Positions 12,428-40,506 of a stretch of DNA of 47,668 bases are shown here, piece after piece. Numbering within the stretch: the stretch's first letter is position 1; every line of letters begins with the position of its first letter. Made by a program: the position numbers and the translations under genes. This stretch comes from an uncultured Bacteroidales bacterium (GTDB lineage Bacteria; Bacteroidota; Bacteroidia; Bacteroidales; P3): positions 1 to 47,668 of the forward strand of contig ONLW01000022.1 of NCBI GenBank assembly GCA_900318835.1. The letters run 5' to 3'. A model generated the notes under the pieces. The model made no database searches. It was not told the DNA's origin and worked only from the letters and a program-made list of their open reading frames with translations.

Positions 12428-12501
12428 GGCTCCTTAGCTCAACTGAATAGAGCATCTGACTACGGATCAGAAGGTTGCAGGTTTGAATCCTGCAGGAGTC
12501 A
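12428..12501 (+). tRNA. tRNA-Arg (anticodon ACG)
   Basis: A full cloverleaf can be drawn: acceptor GGCTCCT with AGGAGTC, D-stem GCTC/GAGC, anticodon stem TCTGA/TCAGA around loop CTACGGA (anticodon ACG), and T-arm GCAGG-TTTGAAT-CCTGC. CCA is not encoded. 74 bases. It reads CGU and, after A-to-I editing, other CGN codons. Confidence 0.96.
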
Positions 12502-12506
12502 CACAG

Positions 12507-35791: not shown

Positions 35792-37069
35792 ATGATAGAC
35801 GAGAAAATAATACTCCAGGTACTGGCTGAACAACAGGAGGAAATCAAGAGTTACAAGCCTCAAAAATGGGTAGCACGCAAGGAAGAGTCGCTCTTCGAGT
35901 TCGACACCAAGATGGCACAGGTGGTTATCGGTGTGCGTCGGAGCGGCAAATCCACCATCTGCCACAAAGTGCTGCTGGAGCGTGGCATCCGCTACGGCTA
36001 TGTCAACCTTGACGACGACCGTTTGGCGGATATGAAGACCGAAGACCTCAACACCGTGCTCTCGTGCGTCTATCAGCTCTATGGCAGCGACATTCCCTAT
36101 CTGGTGCTCGACGAGATTCAGGATGTGGACGGATGGTACCTGTTTGTGAACCGCTTGCTGCGCACCGACTTACATATTTTTGTCACGGGCAGCAATGCCA
36201 AACTGCTCAGTGGCGAGCTGGCCACACATCTCACCGGTCGTTACAACGAGATACACCTCTACCCATTCTCTTTCTCGGAATATTGTCAATACCATCAGAT
36301 TGACACTCGGGGCATCACCACCAAAGCCGATGCCGACCGCAAGCGGGCCTTTATGGATTACATCCACGACGGTGGCTTTCCCGAGATGCAAGGACTTCGC
36401 AACAAACGAGCTTATGTGCAGAGCCTTATAGAGGCAATCCTGCGAAAAGATATCCAGAAGCGTTTCAAAATACGCAACATCGAGGCGTTGCGCAAGTTGG
36501 CGCACCACCTTATCAATAATGCCTGCCAAGAGGTCAACTACGACGAGCTGTCAGGCATGTTGGGCATTGCCGACAAGACGGTGAAGAAATATGTGGATTA
36601 CCTCAGTCAGGCTTTCCTGATACAGCTGCTCACGCGCCATTCCTTCAAAAGCAAGGAGCGCATACGCAACCAGAAGGCCTATATGGTCGATACCGGATTG
36701 CAGGGGAACCGCGACAATACGCTGGCTCCCGAAAACCTCGGATGGCGGCTGGAGAACGTCGTCTATATAGAACTCCTAAGACGCTGCGCCCACGATTTCT
36801 TGGATGTCTACTACCTCAAACCCGCTCCCAGAGCCAAGGAGGTCGATTTTGTCGTCTGCGACCAGAACAAAACGGTGGAACTGATACAGGTGGCATACGA
36901 GACAGACAGCCCTAAGGCCTACGACCGCGAGACCTTATCGCTTGTAAAGGCATCGGATGCCCTATCGTGCAACCGACTAACCCTTATTGCATTCTCACCC
37001 ACACGCGATGTCGTGATTGACGGAAAAGCCATCCACATTGTTTCGGCATTGGAGTGGCTATTGCAATAA
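35792..37069 (+). CDS. AAA+ ATPase with DUF4143 C-terminal domain
   Basis: 425 residues. Walker A GVRRSGKST at 47-55, Walker B YLVLDEIQ near 103-110 and sensor-1 ITGS-like VTGSNAKLL. The C-terminal DUF4143 part carries the restriction-endonuclease-like fold with AKEVDFVV. These ATPases are common, often mobile, in gut Bacteroidetes; their function is not settled. The next gene set is a restriction-modification system, which may be a coincidence or a small defence island. Confidence 0.87.
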   Translation: MIDEKIILQVLAEQQEEIKSYKPQKWVARKEESLFEFDTKMAQVVIGVRRSGKSTICHKVLLERGIRYGYVNLDDDRLADMKTEDLNTVLSCVYQLYGSDIPYLVLDEIQDVDGWYLFVNRLLRTDLHIFVTGSNAKLLSGELATHLTGRYNEIHLYPFSFSEYCQYHQIDTRGITTKADADRKRAFMDYIHDGGFPEMQGLRNKRAYVQSLIEAILRKDIQKRFKIRNIEALRKLAHHLINNACQEVNYDELSGMLGIADKTVKKYVDYLSQAFLIQLLTRHSFKSKERIRNQKAYMVDTGLQGNRDNTLAPENLGWRLENVVYIELLRRCAHDFLDVYYLKPAPRAKEVDFVVCDQNKTVELIQVAYETDSPKAYDRETLSLVKASDALSCNRLTLIAFSPTRDVVIDGKAIHIVSALEWLLQ

Positions 37070-37096
37070 TCTTTTTGCTATTCCAGAAATAATGCG

Positions 37097-37104
37097 TAAC
37101 TTTG
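37097..37104 (+). promoter_or_regulatory. Bacteroidetes promoter of the RM leader
   Basis: TAACTTTG followed by CA. It would start a transcript about 285 bases ahead of the methyltransferase start, including the structured element. Confidence 0.7.
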
Positions 37105-37208
37105 CAGTTCGAAAATAGTCAGTTAATTATAAACGAAAACAACTTAAAAACAAGAATATATAATTAGATAATAATATTTTAACATAGCGCGAGCGAATTA
37201 TTCGGCAT

Positions 37209-37357
37209 ACCTTGAAACTTAGGAACTTTCAAACGTCCAATGCGAATAAGTCTGCAAGCGTCTGCGTTGGTGCAGGCGAGACTTATCTGTTTGGACGGGC
37301 ATCCTAAGGCCTCAAGGTGCAGAGAATCGAACCTGCACCTTTTGTTTGGATGCCCGT
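37209..37357 (+). ncRNA. Structured, possibly bistable RNA leader of the RM operon
   Basis: Five nested stems can be drawn from 37,209 to 37,318: ACCTTGA/TCAAGGT, CTTAGG/CCTAAG, CGTCCA/TGGACG, ATAAGTCT/AGACTTAT, CGTCTGC/GCAGGCG (loop GTTGGT), 34 base pairs in all. A second hairpin AAGGTGCAG/CTGCACCTT (37,314-37,341) followed by TTTGTTTG looks like a terminator and uses bases of the first stem. A third pairing ACGGGCATCC (37,295-37,304) with GGATGCCCGT (37,348-37,357) competes with two other stems. No known RNA class is recognised. Its minus strand resembles the T-arm end of a tRNA (GGTTCGATTC), so a tRNA relic is an alternative. Confidence 0.6.
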
Positions 37358-37394
37358 ACCGCTGAATGGATCAATCGCCAGCAGACGTAGACGT

Positions 37395-39161
37395 ATGGAC
37401 AGAATCACCATGATACAAACTGTGGGGCAACAATACCTCACTTCCAATATTGAAAACGGGGAATTTAGTTATGCACAAGTTATAGACAGAACTCTTTCCG
37501 GCCACTACAAATTGGATATCCGTTTTTATGACTCAACCAAAAGAATCGCCATTCTCATTGAAACAAAAACGCGTTTCAAGAAGAGTGATGAGGCACAATT
37601 ATTCGACTATGTTACACTCGAAAAAGAATATGCTGTAGCAGACAAGATTATTGCAATTTTAGCTAATACTGCTAACGATAAGTTAAAAGTATGGAAATGT
37701 CTGCCGGATGGAAATGCAGAGTTACTCAACGACACTAAACTAAAAACAATCGCCGAATATGCTGACTATTATCTACCCCAGAATGTGAATGACAGGTCAG
37801 CTGTTCTTGAAAATACTGCCACTCTTAACAAGGAATTGCATGATAACGGCATACCGGAAAATCTAAGGAGTCAATTTGTAGGCACTTGTCTTCTTGCCCT
37901 CAAAAACGGATTGGTATACACAAGCCAAATGTCCACACTACAAATCATTGCAGGCATTAAAGGAATATTAGGTTCTTTGCTGAAGGATAGTATGGATAAG
38001 GCCGTTAAGCTTACCGTATTGCAAGAAAAGGTCTTGGAGAATCAATACGTCCGTGAGATGGATTCTCATAATTTCCATCATCTACTTAAATTTATCAAGG
38101 AAAATATTCTTCCTTACATCAATGACACAAACCACGAAGGACAAGATATATTAAGCTACTTCTTTACCACCTTTAATAAATACGTTGCTCGTGAGGATAA
38201 GAACCAGGCATTTACGCCAAATCACATTGCTCATTTTATGTGCAAAGTCGCAGGTATTTATAAAAACACACAAATATTTGATCCCACGTGTGGTTCTGGA
38301 ACATTTCTTGTCCAAGCAATGACAATGGCGCTAGCTCAATGTGAGACCAATAAAGAGCGTGACGCTGTAAAAGAGAAGCAAATTTTTGGTATTGAGTATG
38401 ACGAGAACGTTTTTGGATTAGCAACAACAAATATGCTAATTCATGGTGACGGTAATTCAAATATCAAAAAAGCCTCATGTTTTGACGAGAAAAGTTGGAT
38501 AGAGCAATCGTTATTACTTACGAAACCAAGGGTTGTATTGATGAATCCTCCATATAATGCATCAAAAAAACAGGTGCCTAAGGCGTTTGCTGATACTTGG
38601 GGGAAATCTAGCACAGATCCATCCAAAGGAATGTATTTTGTGAATTATGTTGCAGAATGCGTTGGTACAGGAAGATTGGTTACTTTACTTCCTATGGCCT
38701 GTGCAATAACAACAAGGGGTGTCATTTCCGACCTTAAACATAAAATGTTAGAGAAAAACACTCTGGATGCGGTGTTCTCTTTCCCTGCCGACATGTTCTA
38801 TCCTGGAGCCAGTGCTGTTGCTTGCTGTATGGTTTTCAATCTGGGAATACCTCACTCATCTGAAAAGAAAACATTCTTCGGATATTTTAAAGACGACGGT
38901 TTCGAGAAACGCAAAGGGATTGGCAGAGTGGATGTACGAAATCGCTGGGATAAAATAGAGGACGAATGGTTGGATATGTATGAGCATCGAGCCACTATGG
39001 CTGGTAAATGTGTGGCACAATCCGTCACAGCTGAGGACGAATGGTGCGCAGAAGCTTATATGGAAACGGATTATAGTACATTATGTGATGCAGATTTTAT
39101 CAATGTAATGAAAAACTATGCTGCATTTTTAGTGCAAAACGGAATGGGAGATAAACTATGA
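37395..39161 (+). CDS. Restriction-modification protein: PD-(D/E)XK nuclease fused to N6-adenine methyltransferase (BcgI A-like)
   Basis: 588 residues from the ATG at 37,395; the frame is open further upstream into the structured leader. N-terminal nuclease-like motif D41...E56-T-K58 (KLDIRF, IAILIETK). A helical part follows, then HsdM-type methyltransferase with motif I FDPTCGSGTFL near residue 295 and catalytic NPPY near 384. Type I HsdM proteins lack the nuclease domain; BcgI-type A subunits (about 640 residues) have exactly this order. The S subunit gene overlaps by four bases and no HsdR gene is near, so a self-contained type IIB-like system is the best reading. Type assignment is inference. 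AT-rich compared with neighbours, suggesting transfer. Confidence 0.82.
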   Translation: MDRITMIQTVGQQYLTSNIENGEFSYAQVIDRTLSGHYKLDIRFYDSTKRIAILIETKTRFKKSDEAQLFDYVTLEKEYAVADKIIAILANTANDKLKVWKCLPDGNAELLNDTKLKTIAEYADYYLPQNVNDRSAVLENTATLNKELHDNGIPENLRSQFVGTCLLALKNGLVYTSQMSTLQIIAGIKGILGSLLKDSMDKAVKLTVLQEKVLENQYVREMDSHNFHHLLKFIKENILPYINDTNHEGQDILSYFFTTFNKYVAREDKNQAFTPNHIAHFMCKVAGIYKNTQIFDPTCGSGTFLVQAMTMALAQCETNKERDAVKEKQIFGIEYDENVFGLATTNMLIHGDGNSNIKKASCFDEKSWIEQSLLLTKPRVVLMNPPYNASKKQVPKAFADTWGKSSTDPSKGMYFVNYVAECVGTGRLVTLLPMACAITTRGVISDLKHKMLEKNTLDAVFSFPADMFYPGASAVACCMVFNLGIPHSSEKKTFFGYFKDDGFEKRKGIGRVDVRNRWDKIEDEWLDMYEHRATMAGKCVAQSVTAEDEWCAEAYMETDYSTLCDADFINVMKNYAAFLVQNGMGDKL

Positions 39162-40267
39162 ATACAGAAGGCTGGAAACGCTTTAAGATGGAGGAACTCT
39201 TCACCTCTTTCGAAAGAGGTAAGGTTCACTCTCAGTATAGCCTACCTGATGGTAATGATTACTTCTACGTTGGAGCAAAGAAGGACAGGTGTGGTGTGAT
39301 GAGACATTGTGGCTATGATGAAGAGCTGATAAGCAAGGGTAATTGTATTGTTTTTATTTGCAACGGAGAAGGTTCTGTCGGTTATTGTAATTATATGGAC
39401 AGAGATTTTATGGCATCTGGGGATCTTATATTGGCGTATGGCGATTTCATTAACCCATATACAGCCCTTTTTATTGTAACACTACTTGACCGAGAAAGAC
39501 CCAAATACTCCTTTGGGCGAAAGTATGGTAAATACGTAGCAAAAACCACCATTCCATTACCTACACAAGAAGACAGAAAAACTCCAGATTGGAAATGGAT
39601 TGAAAAACACACCAAAGAAATCATATTACCTTCGTTACCAAGCAACGCCAGAAAAGTTTGGCTAAAACAATACGACGTTCTGCCAATTTATACAAAAAAG
39701 AAAAATGAGGCAAGAAGGAAACTTCTTACCGATTGTACCTGGGATTACTTTAGATACGATGAAATATTTGATATAAGAAAAGGCTTTTACAATAAGAAAC
39801 CTGATGACATAGAAGGAGGGGATATTCCATTTATTGGTGCGACAGATAGCAATAATGGAGTTACATCAAGGTACAATTATGATGTCGTTGAACAAGCTTC
39901 CAAAACAGGAGATGAACACAACGCTCCGATAGAAGAAAAACTTTTCGCGGGAAAATGTATTACGGTCTCAAATAATGGCTCTGTGGGATATGCGTTTTAT
40001 CAGCCGGTTAGATTTACATGCTCTCACGATGTCAACCCTCTATATATTCATCCCCAGTGGGGAAAGGAGTTAAACCCATATATTGCAGTTTTTATTTGTA
40101 CAATTATTGAGAAGGAAAGATTTCGTTGGGCTTATGGTCGGAAATGGAGGCCCATGAGGATGCCTTCATCAATCATCCGTCTTCCCGTTATTTCTGGGAC
40201 TCGCACCCCCGACTGGCAGTTTATGGAGGACTACATCAAATCATTGCCTTATTCAAAGAACATCTAA
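39158..40267 (+). CDS. Restriction-modification specificity subunit (HsdS / BcgI B-like)
   Basis: 369 residues with two target-recognition halves. Each begins with the same pattern: WKRFKMEELFTSFERGK and, in the second half, WDYFRYDEIFDIRKGF. GSVGYCNY and GSVGYAFY, PYTALFIVTLL and PYIAVFICTII are matching segments of the two halves. It chooses the bipartite DNA target and lets the nuclease-methylase act there. Start overlaps the upstream stop (ATGA). Size is close to BcgI B (about 340). Confidence 0.87.
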   Translation: MNTEGWKRFKMEELFTSFERGKVHSQYSLPDGNDYFYVGAKKDRCGVMRHCGYDEELISKGNCIVFICNGEGSVGYCNYMDRDFMASGDLILAYGDFINPYTALFIVTLLDRERPKYSFGRKYGKYVAKTTIPLPTQEDRKTPDWKWIEKHTKEIILPSLPSNARKVWLKQYDVLPIYTKKKNEARRKLLTDCTWDYFRYDEIFDIRKGFYNKKPDDIEGGDIPFIGATDSNNGVTSRYNYDVVEQASKTGDEHNAPIEEKLFAGKCITVSNNGSVGYAFYQPVRFTCSHDVNPLYIHPQWGKELNPYIAVFICTIIEKERFRWAYGRKWRPMRMPSSIIRLPVISGTRTPDWQFMEDYIKSLPYSKNI

Positions 40268-40269
40268 AC

Positions 40270-40506
40270 ATGTCTTATAAAAAAAACATACTATTTATAT
40301 TACCCTTTGCGCTCCTCTTCCTCTCCTGCGATAACTCTGTTGTCTCACGCGCAGAGTACGACGCATTGCTATCGGAGAAGCAGGAAATGGAAGCACTCAA
40401 CGACTCGCTACAGTTCGAACTATCGAGCCTCAAAATCTACGTCGAATGCCTCGAAGAGGACAACAACGAACTCATCGAAGAACTGAAACGCACACCATGT
40501 GATTAG
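40270..40506 (+). CDS. Small coiled-coil lipoprotein
   Basis: 78 residues. Signal MSYKKNILFILPFALLFLSC with lipobox Cys 20, then an acidic helical stretch with heptad leucines. Starts 2 bases after the S subunit stop, so it is transcribed with the RM genes. No family recognised. Confidence 0.65.
   Translation: MSYKKNILFILPFALLFLSCDNSVVSRAEYDALLSEKQEMEALNDSLQFELSSLKIYVECLEEDNNELIEELKRTPCD

Follow-up and report, generated by a model that had tools for sequence, protein, structure and literature searches.

The restriction-modification (RM) operon in the DNA analysed here is preceded by a structured leader that is best read as a member of a cis-acting switch RNA family spread through the class Bacteroidia. 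The leader is shared by about ten RM/methyltransferase (MTase) family types, and outside the genus it also stands before non-RM genes. We consider it fairly probable that it works as an attenuation-type RNA switch common to many RM systems and, in other lineages, to non-RM genes. An RNA switch in the leader of this operon had been proposed from its sequence (the original prediction). The underlying observation is confirmed, and its interpretation is supported by homologues, covariation and the RM context, with the correction that RM genes are not the only ones behind the leader.

Structure of the leader

The window, that is, the whole stretch of 47,668 nt that was analysed, carries the leader on the plus strand, as it does all features given below. 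It is about 210 nt long, beginning near 37186 and reaching the start codon (37186-37395). The TAnnTTTG box and the ATG at 37395, by which the original prediction had framed it, are both in the sequence. The box (TAACTTTG, 37097-37104) is assigned to the presumed leader promoter, since we take TAnnTTTG to be the Bacteroidetes-type -7 promoter motif; it occurs within 160 nt upstream of the leader at 66 of 96 loci, against 8 expected from dinucleotide shuffles. The 5' part of the leader contains AGCGUUUGCU. The conserved 5' element, AGCGCGAGCG (37186-37195), has the form AGCGTTTGCT in most relatives (exact AGCGTTTGCT in 57 and AGCGCGAGCG in 6 of 100 hits) and could possibly form a short hairpin with a GCGA or GTTT loop.

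The five predicted nested stems are all present (37209-37318) and comprise 36 pairs, one of them G-U, rather than the 34 originally counted. P1 joins ACCTTGA (37209-37215) to TCAAGGT (37312-37318), P2 joins CTTAGGA (37218-37224) to TCCTAAG (37302-37308), and P3, whose sequence varies freely, joins CGTCCAA (37234-37240) to TTGGACG (37291-37297). P4 consists of strands r (ATAAGTCT, 37246-37253) and s (AGACTTAT, 37279-37286), and P5 of strand p (CGTCTGC, 37259-37265) and GCAGGCG (37272-37278). The fold of 37195-37395 had z = -5.7, with none of 200 shuffles equally stable; together with the covariation in 20 and 98 homologues described below, this indicates that the leader fold is not due to chance.

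Several of these strands have a second partner. On the 5' side, s0 (TTATTCG, 37198-37204) can pair with CGAATAA (37243-37249), which takes up the first part of r, and an alternative hairpin TTGAAA/TTTCAA (37212-37232) takes the 5' strand of P1. On the 3' side lies a terminator-like hairpin t:t' (37314-37341; AAGGTGCAG, 37314-37322, with CTGCACCTT, 37333-37341) with the U-tract TTTTGTTT (37340-37347). The 3' strand of P1 shares five bases with t, so the proposed reuse of TCAAGGT by this hairpin stands, whereas the T-run ascribed to it is weak in the window copy, where the longest near the hairpin is 4. Strand q (GGTGCAGG, 37269-37276), on the 3' side of P5, is also the full complement of t' in the form CCTGCACC (37332-37339); both q and t contain GGTGCAG, and t' contains its complement. 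The last alternative pairing of the original prediction, between c (ACGGGCATCC, 37295-37304) and c' (GGATGCCCGT, 37348-37357), is likewise present in the sequence and belongs to the predicted read-through fold, as does that of p with its complement a' (GCAGACG, 37381-37387), 8-14 nt 5' of the start codon. Read on the minus strand, the 37314-37341 hairpin gives GGTTCGATTC, also found in L005. We take this to be like the tRNA T-arm motif; no tRNA is predicted there in the window, and the likeness is probably due to chance.

Homologues and their distribution

When 190 genomes of the family were searched at the DNA level, 101 contained matches, many of which covered only the promoter-side part. 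Twenty leaders reaching into the hairpin were aligned with MAFFT only (alignment A1): that of the window, 18 from its genus, and L027 from another genus. L031, truncated at a contig end, was excluded. The covariance model R1 was built from these 20 leaders, the window included. With 7, 9 or 14 candidates scored per genome, and at E <= 0.01, which is a rough value, R1 matched at least 159 of the 190 genomes of the family and at least 102 of 393 genomes of the order, own genome included in both counts. At the similarly rough E <= 0.001, matches were obtained in at least 17 of 296 genomes of a phylum sample, which may not include other classes; all 17 were the own genome or belonged to the same order or class. 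Among GTDB contigs, 27 stretches, all from Bacteroidia, contain one 23-mer of the 5' part without mismatch. Of these, 23 are titled Bacteroidales and one Bacteroidia, and the others are Colimorpha, Scybalousia, and Marinilabiliaceae, which the NCBI taxonomy places in the same class. All 27 scored 121-177 bits with R1.

The genome of the window has three R1 matches: the only one within the window, L094 before an EcoRI-type methyltransferase gene, and L230 before an MmeI/Eco57I-like pair. Several copies per genome were also found outside the genus (L095, L096, L097, L098, and L109 in G138 and G185; L092, L101, L102, and L237-L239 in G205, G362, and G259). Where readable, the genes behind these copies are secreted-looking or BspA-like, and several of the copies lie near contig ends.

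Conservation of the long hairpin and of the competing folds

The collection of homologous leaders and the covariation test that the original prediction had called for yielded both homologues and covariation. Alignment A2 comprised 98 distinct hits, from 100 hits in 100 chosen sources. Here 95.3% of the cells of P1-P5 and t:t' were paired, 40 of 42 pairs had changes on both sides, and the covariation score was 0.669, compared with 0.245 for shuffled and 0.08-0.12 for slid alignments. Since A2 had been fitted to the P1-P5 structure, the count was repeated on the MAFFT-only alignment A1 of 20 leaders, where 93.3% of cells were paired, 21 of 42 pairs were changed on both sides, and the score was 0.397 against 0.209 for shuffles; further pair types were not above shuffles (58 vs 57.4). 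In A2, P2 had 99.4% of cells paired and all 7 pairs changed on both sides. P3 and loop lengths vary across A1. At two P5 positions of A2, G-U is the commonest pair type, which favours RNA over a DNA cruciform. These alignments show the long hairpin P1-P5 to be real.

The competing pairings, which were outside the model structure, also showed compensatory changes. The 5' fold (s0:r and TGAAA:TTTCA) was paired in 91.3% of cells, with 49 cells changed on both sides against 13.9 and a score of 0.174 against 0.100. Pairing q:t' was found in 95.2% of cells (40 changed on both sides against 8.5) and was more regular than t:t' (89.0%). Strand q resembles t at 71% of positions, compared with 66% (maximum 69%) when loci are shuffled. 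The P1 nucleotide at column 37 and its partners in P1 and the 5' fold are G/C/C at 48 of 97 loci, T/A/A at 10, A/T/T at 7, and mixed at 32; the s0/r/s triplet is A/T/A at 68, G/C/G at 9, and mixed at 20. Pairing s:r2 was less regular (74.7% paired, score 0.208 against 0.152), and a pairing p:t was rejected for want of covariation (0.262 against 0.258 shuffled). In the subclass L081, L085, L084, and L133, P2 is TTTGGCG/CGCCAAA (CGGC in L133), the local t arm is poor, and q is complementary to t'; the terminator of these leaders may be a long-range q/s:r2/t' stem.

Partners were also exchanged between loci in a swap test, separately for the 42 best hits (those with at least 134.6 bits) and the remaining 55, the set of 97 leaving out L100, L104, and L123 as duplicates; own partners were set against the best of 100-300 exchanged sets. 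In the 42, own partners beat all exchanged sets for the hairpin halves (own -36.3 vs exchanged mean -22.5 kcal/mol), q x t' (-12.4 vs -10.1), c x downstream (-23.6 vs -20.4), p x downstream (-11.2 vs -9.7), and p x q, while s0 x r, P1 x mid, s x r2, and s x downstream remained within the range of exchanged sets. In the other 55, every tested pairing beat the exchanged sets except p x downstream, and it was only here that the own partner of s:r2 was favoured. A pairing of the 5' element with the downstream RNA, in the stretch preceding the start codon, was discarded, being within the exchanged range in the 42; in the 55 it just passed (-8.39 vs best exchanged -8.33). By this test, the RNA 3' of the U-run co-evolves with the 3' half of the long hairpin. 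Overall, the predicted competing folds are conserved, with strands that covary with both alternative partners, and the mutually exclusive, strand-sharing helices expected of an attenuator each have compensatory changes among homologues, as the original prediction had supposed, some of the competing pairings being weak or failing.

Predicted minimum-energy folds changed with the length of the RNA. When it ended at the U-run, P2 was present in 41 of the 42 best loci and 52 of the 55 others; when it extended to the start codon, P2 was present in 3 and 23, and c was paired downstream in 39 and 31, respectively. In the 42, c still paired downstream in 58% of trials with exchanged downstream RNA and in 10% with shuffled RNA, so much of the flip is due to shared sequence; the corresponding values in the 55 were 6% and 7%. 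Only 15 of the 42 and 7 of the 55 had the s0:r pairing in their predicted full-length fold. At the U-run, the free energy of the 42 was -60.9 for P1-P5 with t:t' and -57.3 with t' free, and in the 55 the order was reversed (-50.3 and -53.8). Forcing q:t' cost 7.6-11.2 in the 42 (mean -49.7) and gave -44.5 in the 55, its mean pair probability being 0.0 and 0.03, respectively. The terminator-like hairpin and the extended P1 base are in competition there, with mean pair probabilities of 0.56 and 0.35 in the 42, and 0.24 and 0.52 in the 55. The modelled energies favour no one state at the U-run.

Genes downstream of the leader

In the window, the leader is followed by a gene for an N-6 adenine DNA methyltransferase/type IIG-like RM protein (37395-39161), an N6 methyltransferase of the type IIG/type I kind, with matches to N6_Mtase (1.8e-27, frame from 37317) and PADLOC REase_MTase_IIG (3.6e-59, frame from 37350). 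A specificity subunit gene comes next (39158-40267; Methylase_S, 6.9e-22). The RM frame is also open from an in-frame GTG at 37317; the ATG at 37395 fits as the start, since it lies 48 nt past the model end, and the family median is 59 nt. A protein scan of genome contigs with this methyltransferase found no relative. An AAA_14/DUF4143 ATPase gene (35792-37069) lies on the same strand immediately upstream of the operon, and the specificity gene is followed by a 126-aa ORF (40126-40506) with a lipoprotein-like stretch recognized by eye and no Pfam match.

Counted on the longest ATG frame (minimum 60 aa) starting within 400 nt of the model end, the spacing to the start had the above median of 59 nt and was 20-100 nt at 78 of 94 loci. 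The longest open frame in the next 1.5 kb was on the same strand as the leader at 88 of 92 loci and on the opposite strand at 4. Of the 59 loci scoring at least 113.6 bits, 57 were scanned, one protein per locus (the longest frame starting within 800 nt downstream); L078, with 55 nt downstream, and L123, a duplicate of L122, were left out. A DNA methyltransferase or restriction-family gene was found at 45 of the 57. By our own grouping, these were EcoRI-type (7), N6/N4, type III-like (6), D12 (3), Eco57I (8), C5 (5, with L072 below the curated cut-off), N6_Mtase, type I/IIG-like (8), MmeI (1), type ISP-like (2), ResIII helicase domain only (4), and PLD-SNF2/ResIII helicase (1); leaving out the last two groups gives 40 of 57. 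No RM family was found at L115, L065, L060, L119, L070, L073, L074, L075, L121, L122, L108, and L124. At L070, L073, L074, and L122, the leader directly precedes ORFs of 70-97 aa that by eye resemble XRE-type helix-turn-helix (HTH) proteins and possibly encode regulators of their own. The RM gene is the second gene in some leader loci.

Since the loci are related and the model was built from RM leaders, the 45 RM loci are not independent events, and the breadth of RM types, rather than their count, carries weight. A leader specific to BcgI-like systems, as originally suggested, was rejected because the RM types behind it differ, about ten RM/MTase family types sharing it. Among 38 of the 41 weaker hits, 14 RM proteins were counted, on the assumption that each family match belongs to a separate protein, and about 24 were without an RM family; other genes there included BspA-like, secreted, and acyltransferase genes. 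The reverse search, within the family, looked for the leader at the 30 best EcoRI-type and the 30 best N6_Mtase loci. It was present at 7 of the former, with scores of at least 140 bits at five of them and of 73 and 39 at the other two, and at none of the latter, which means that RM systems do not need the leader.

Proposed mechanism and alternatives

RM systems are a danger to the cells that carry them, and their expression has to be controlled. We propose that the element is the 5' leader RNA of the RM operon, with transcription starting near 37,110. Its 5' half would first fold on itself (s0:r and TTGAAA:TTTCAA), and the emerging 3' half would then displace this fold to form the long hairpin P1-P5. 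The base of the hairpin (P1 and its extension) would sequester the 5' arm of the terminator hairpin, and its upper part would hold q, which is likewise complementary to the terminator's 3' arm. P1-P5 and the terminator would thus compete in an attenuator-like manner, with P1-P5 presumably favouring read-through. Once the polymerase had passed the U-run, the 3' half of P1-P5 could re-pair with the new RNA (c:c' and p:a') in a fold partly covering the nucleotides just upstream of the start codon. Most likely, the leader would serve to keep RM expression low and conditional, a cell-wide factor shifting the balance of folds and thereby the fraction of transcripts that extend into the RM genes and are translated into their products. 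Since about ten RM types share the leader, the signal is unlikely to be the product of one RM system, and the leader raises the question of which signal bacteria use to set restriction. More tentatively, the leader may be a general Bacteroidia RNA switch that responds to a single signal common to the whole cell (infection or growth state, for example) and is placed as a portable unit before acquired restriction or surface genes; many different defence systems would then be governed together.

The leader could instead be mainly a translational switch or an mRNA-stability element, in which the U-run does not terminate and expression depends on whether the start region is held in the read-through fold. 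We regard this as rather unlikely. It would agree with the read-through fold being the predicted minimum in 39 of the 42 best loci, with the co-evolution of the c and p strands with downstream RNA, and with the weak U-tract of the window, in which a strict terminator scan found no terminator. Moreover, 21 of the 97 loci, the window included, have no run of five T, which slightly weakens the termination reading and slightly strengthens the translational one. However, a run of at least five T lies near the hairpin at 76 of the 97 loci (33 among the 42 best, 43 among the 55 others), and t:t' (helix 6) has 89.0% of its cells paired in A2. Moreover, the predicted fold pairs no more than about 44% of the last 20 nt upstream of the start codon, so that occlusion of the start region would be partial. 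A small-molecule riboswitch, with a ligand such as SAM bound by the conserved 5' fold, seems improbable to us. DNA methyltransferases use SAM, and there are conserved 5' stretches unpaired in P1-P5, but the same RNA precedes BspA-like and other genes without a SAM link in other lineages, and the alternative pairing explains much of the 5' conservation. In addition, no Rfam family, SAM riboswitches included, matches the leader. The Rfam comparison, also proposed at the outset, placed it in no known family: at the gathering threshold of Rfam 15, there was no family at the leader in the window and none in 20 relatives, and in E-value mode there was no match within 37000-37500 of the window and only one sub-threshold CRISPR repeat, outside the leader, in 11 relatives.

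It is very unlikely that the element is a separate trans-acting small RNA located before RM genes by chance. With its promoter motif, hairpin and terminator-like end it does look like a self-contained unit, but the regular spacing and strand of the next gene and the co-evolution with RNA past the U-run point to cis action. Least credible of all is a DNA-level element, whether a transposon end, a recombination site, or a tRNA relic, in spite of the nested inverted repeats and the copies before different RM modules. The original prediction had named a tRNA-like relic and a mobile-element end as its main alternatives, and neither held up. ARAGORN and RF00005 gave only a tRNA-Arg at 12428-12502 of the window and no tRNA at the leader, where a decayed relic could escape detection, and G-U is the commonest pair at two P5 positions. 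A mobile-element end is at odds with the single R1 match in the window, the co-directional frames at 88 of 92 loci, and the methyltransferase genes behind all three own-genome matches. A phage or plasmid origin was likewise rejected, the leader having no blastn match among phage and plasmid records; its 21-base core (21-mer) is absent from viral contigs. The attenuation-type switch remains the reading that we prefer.

Comparison with known systems

No title on an RNA leader switch of RM operons came up in searches of open-licence literature. The sections considered of PMC2864571, PMC6429828, PMC7366714, and PMC8040213 name no RM-linked RNA motif, and none of the four terms sought occurs in PMC2965389. 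The sections of PMC8040213 include a list of unnamed Bacteroidetes RNA candidates, and an overlap of the leader family with these, not compared by sequence, is possible. The Bacteroidetes motifs Bacteroidales-1, Bacteroides-1, Flavo-1, and Bacteroid-trp, as given in the sections considered of Weinberg 2010, share the host group with the leader; those among them that are included in Rfam 15 do not match it.

In attenuators and riboswitch expression platforms, as here, one strand is common to an upstream hairpin and a terminator-like hairpin with a T-run, and an earlier 5' fold competes. The leader described here differs in adding a third, read-through fold that would re-pair the same strand beyond the U-run, and in the genes behind it, which are RM systems of many types. 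Reviews of RM regulation (PMC3874152, PMC12707154) never mention riboswitches, and attenuat- and leader occur once each in the former and never in the latter. Their sections considered here cover controller (C) proteins and MTase autorepression. C-protein control also acts on RM expression, but through a protein transcription factor rather than RNA structure; some of the leaders precede small HTH genes. The same sections describe control of RM systems by RNA, namely the antisense RNAs of EcoRI and Eco29kI and hairpins that limit starts of restriction endonuclease (REase) translation (PMC3874152, PMC12707154). As described there, these also limit RM expression at the RNA level, but in single systems, whereas here one cis-acting leader family extends across about ten RM/MTase types. 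This would add a new mode of joint control of defence genes.
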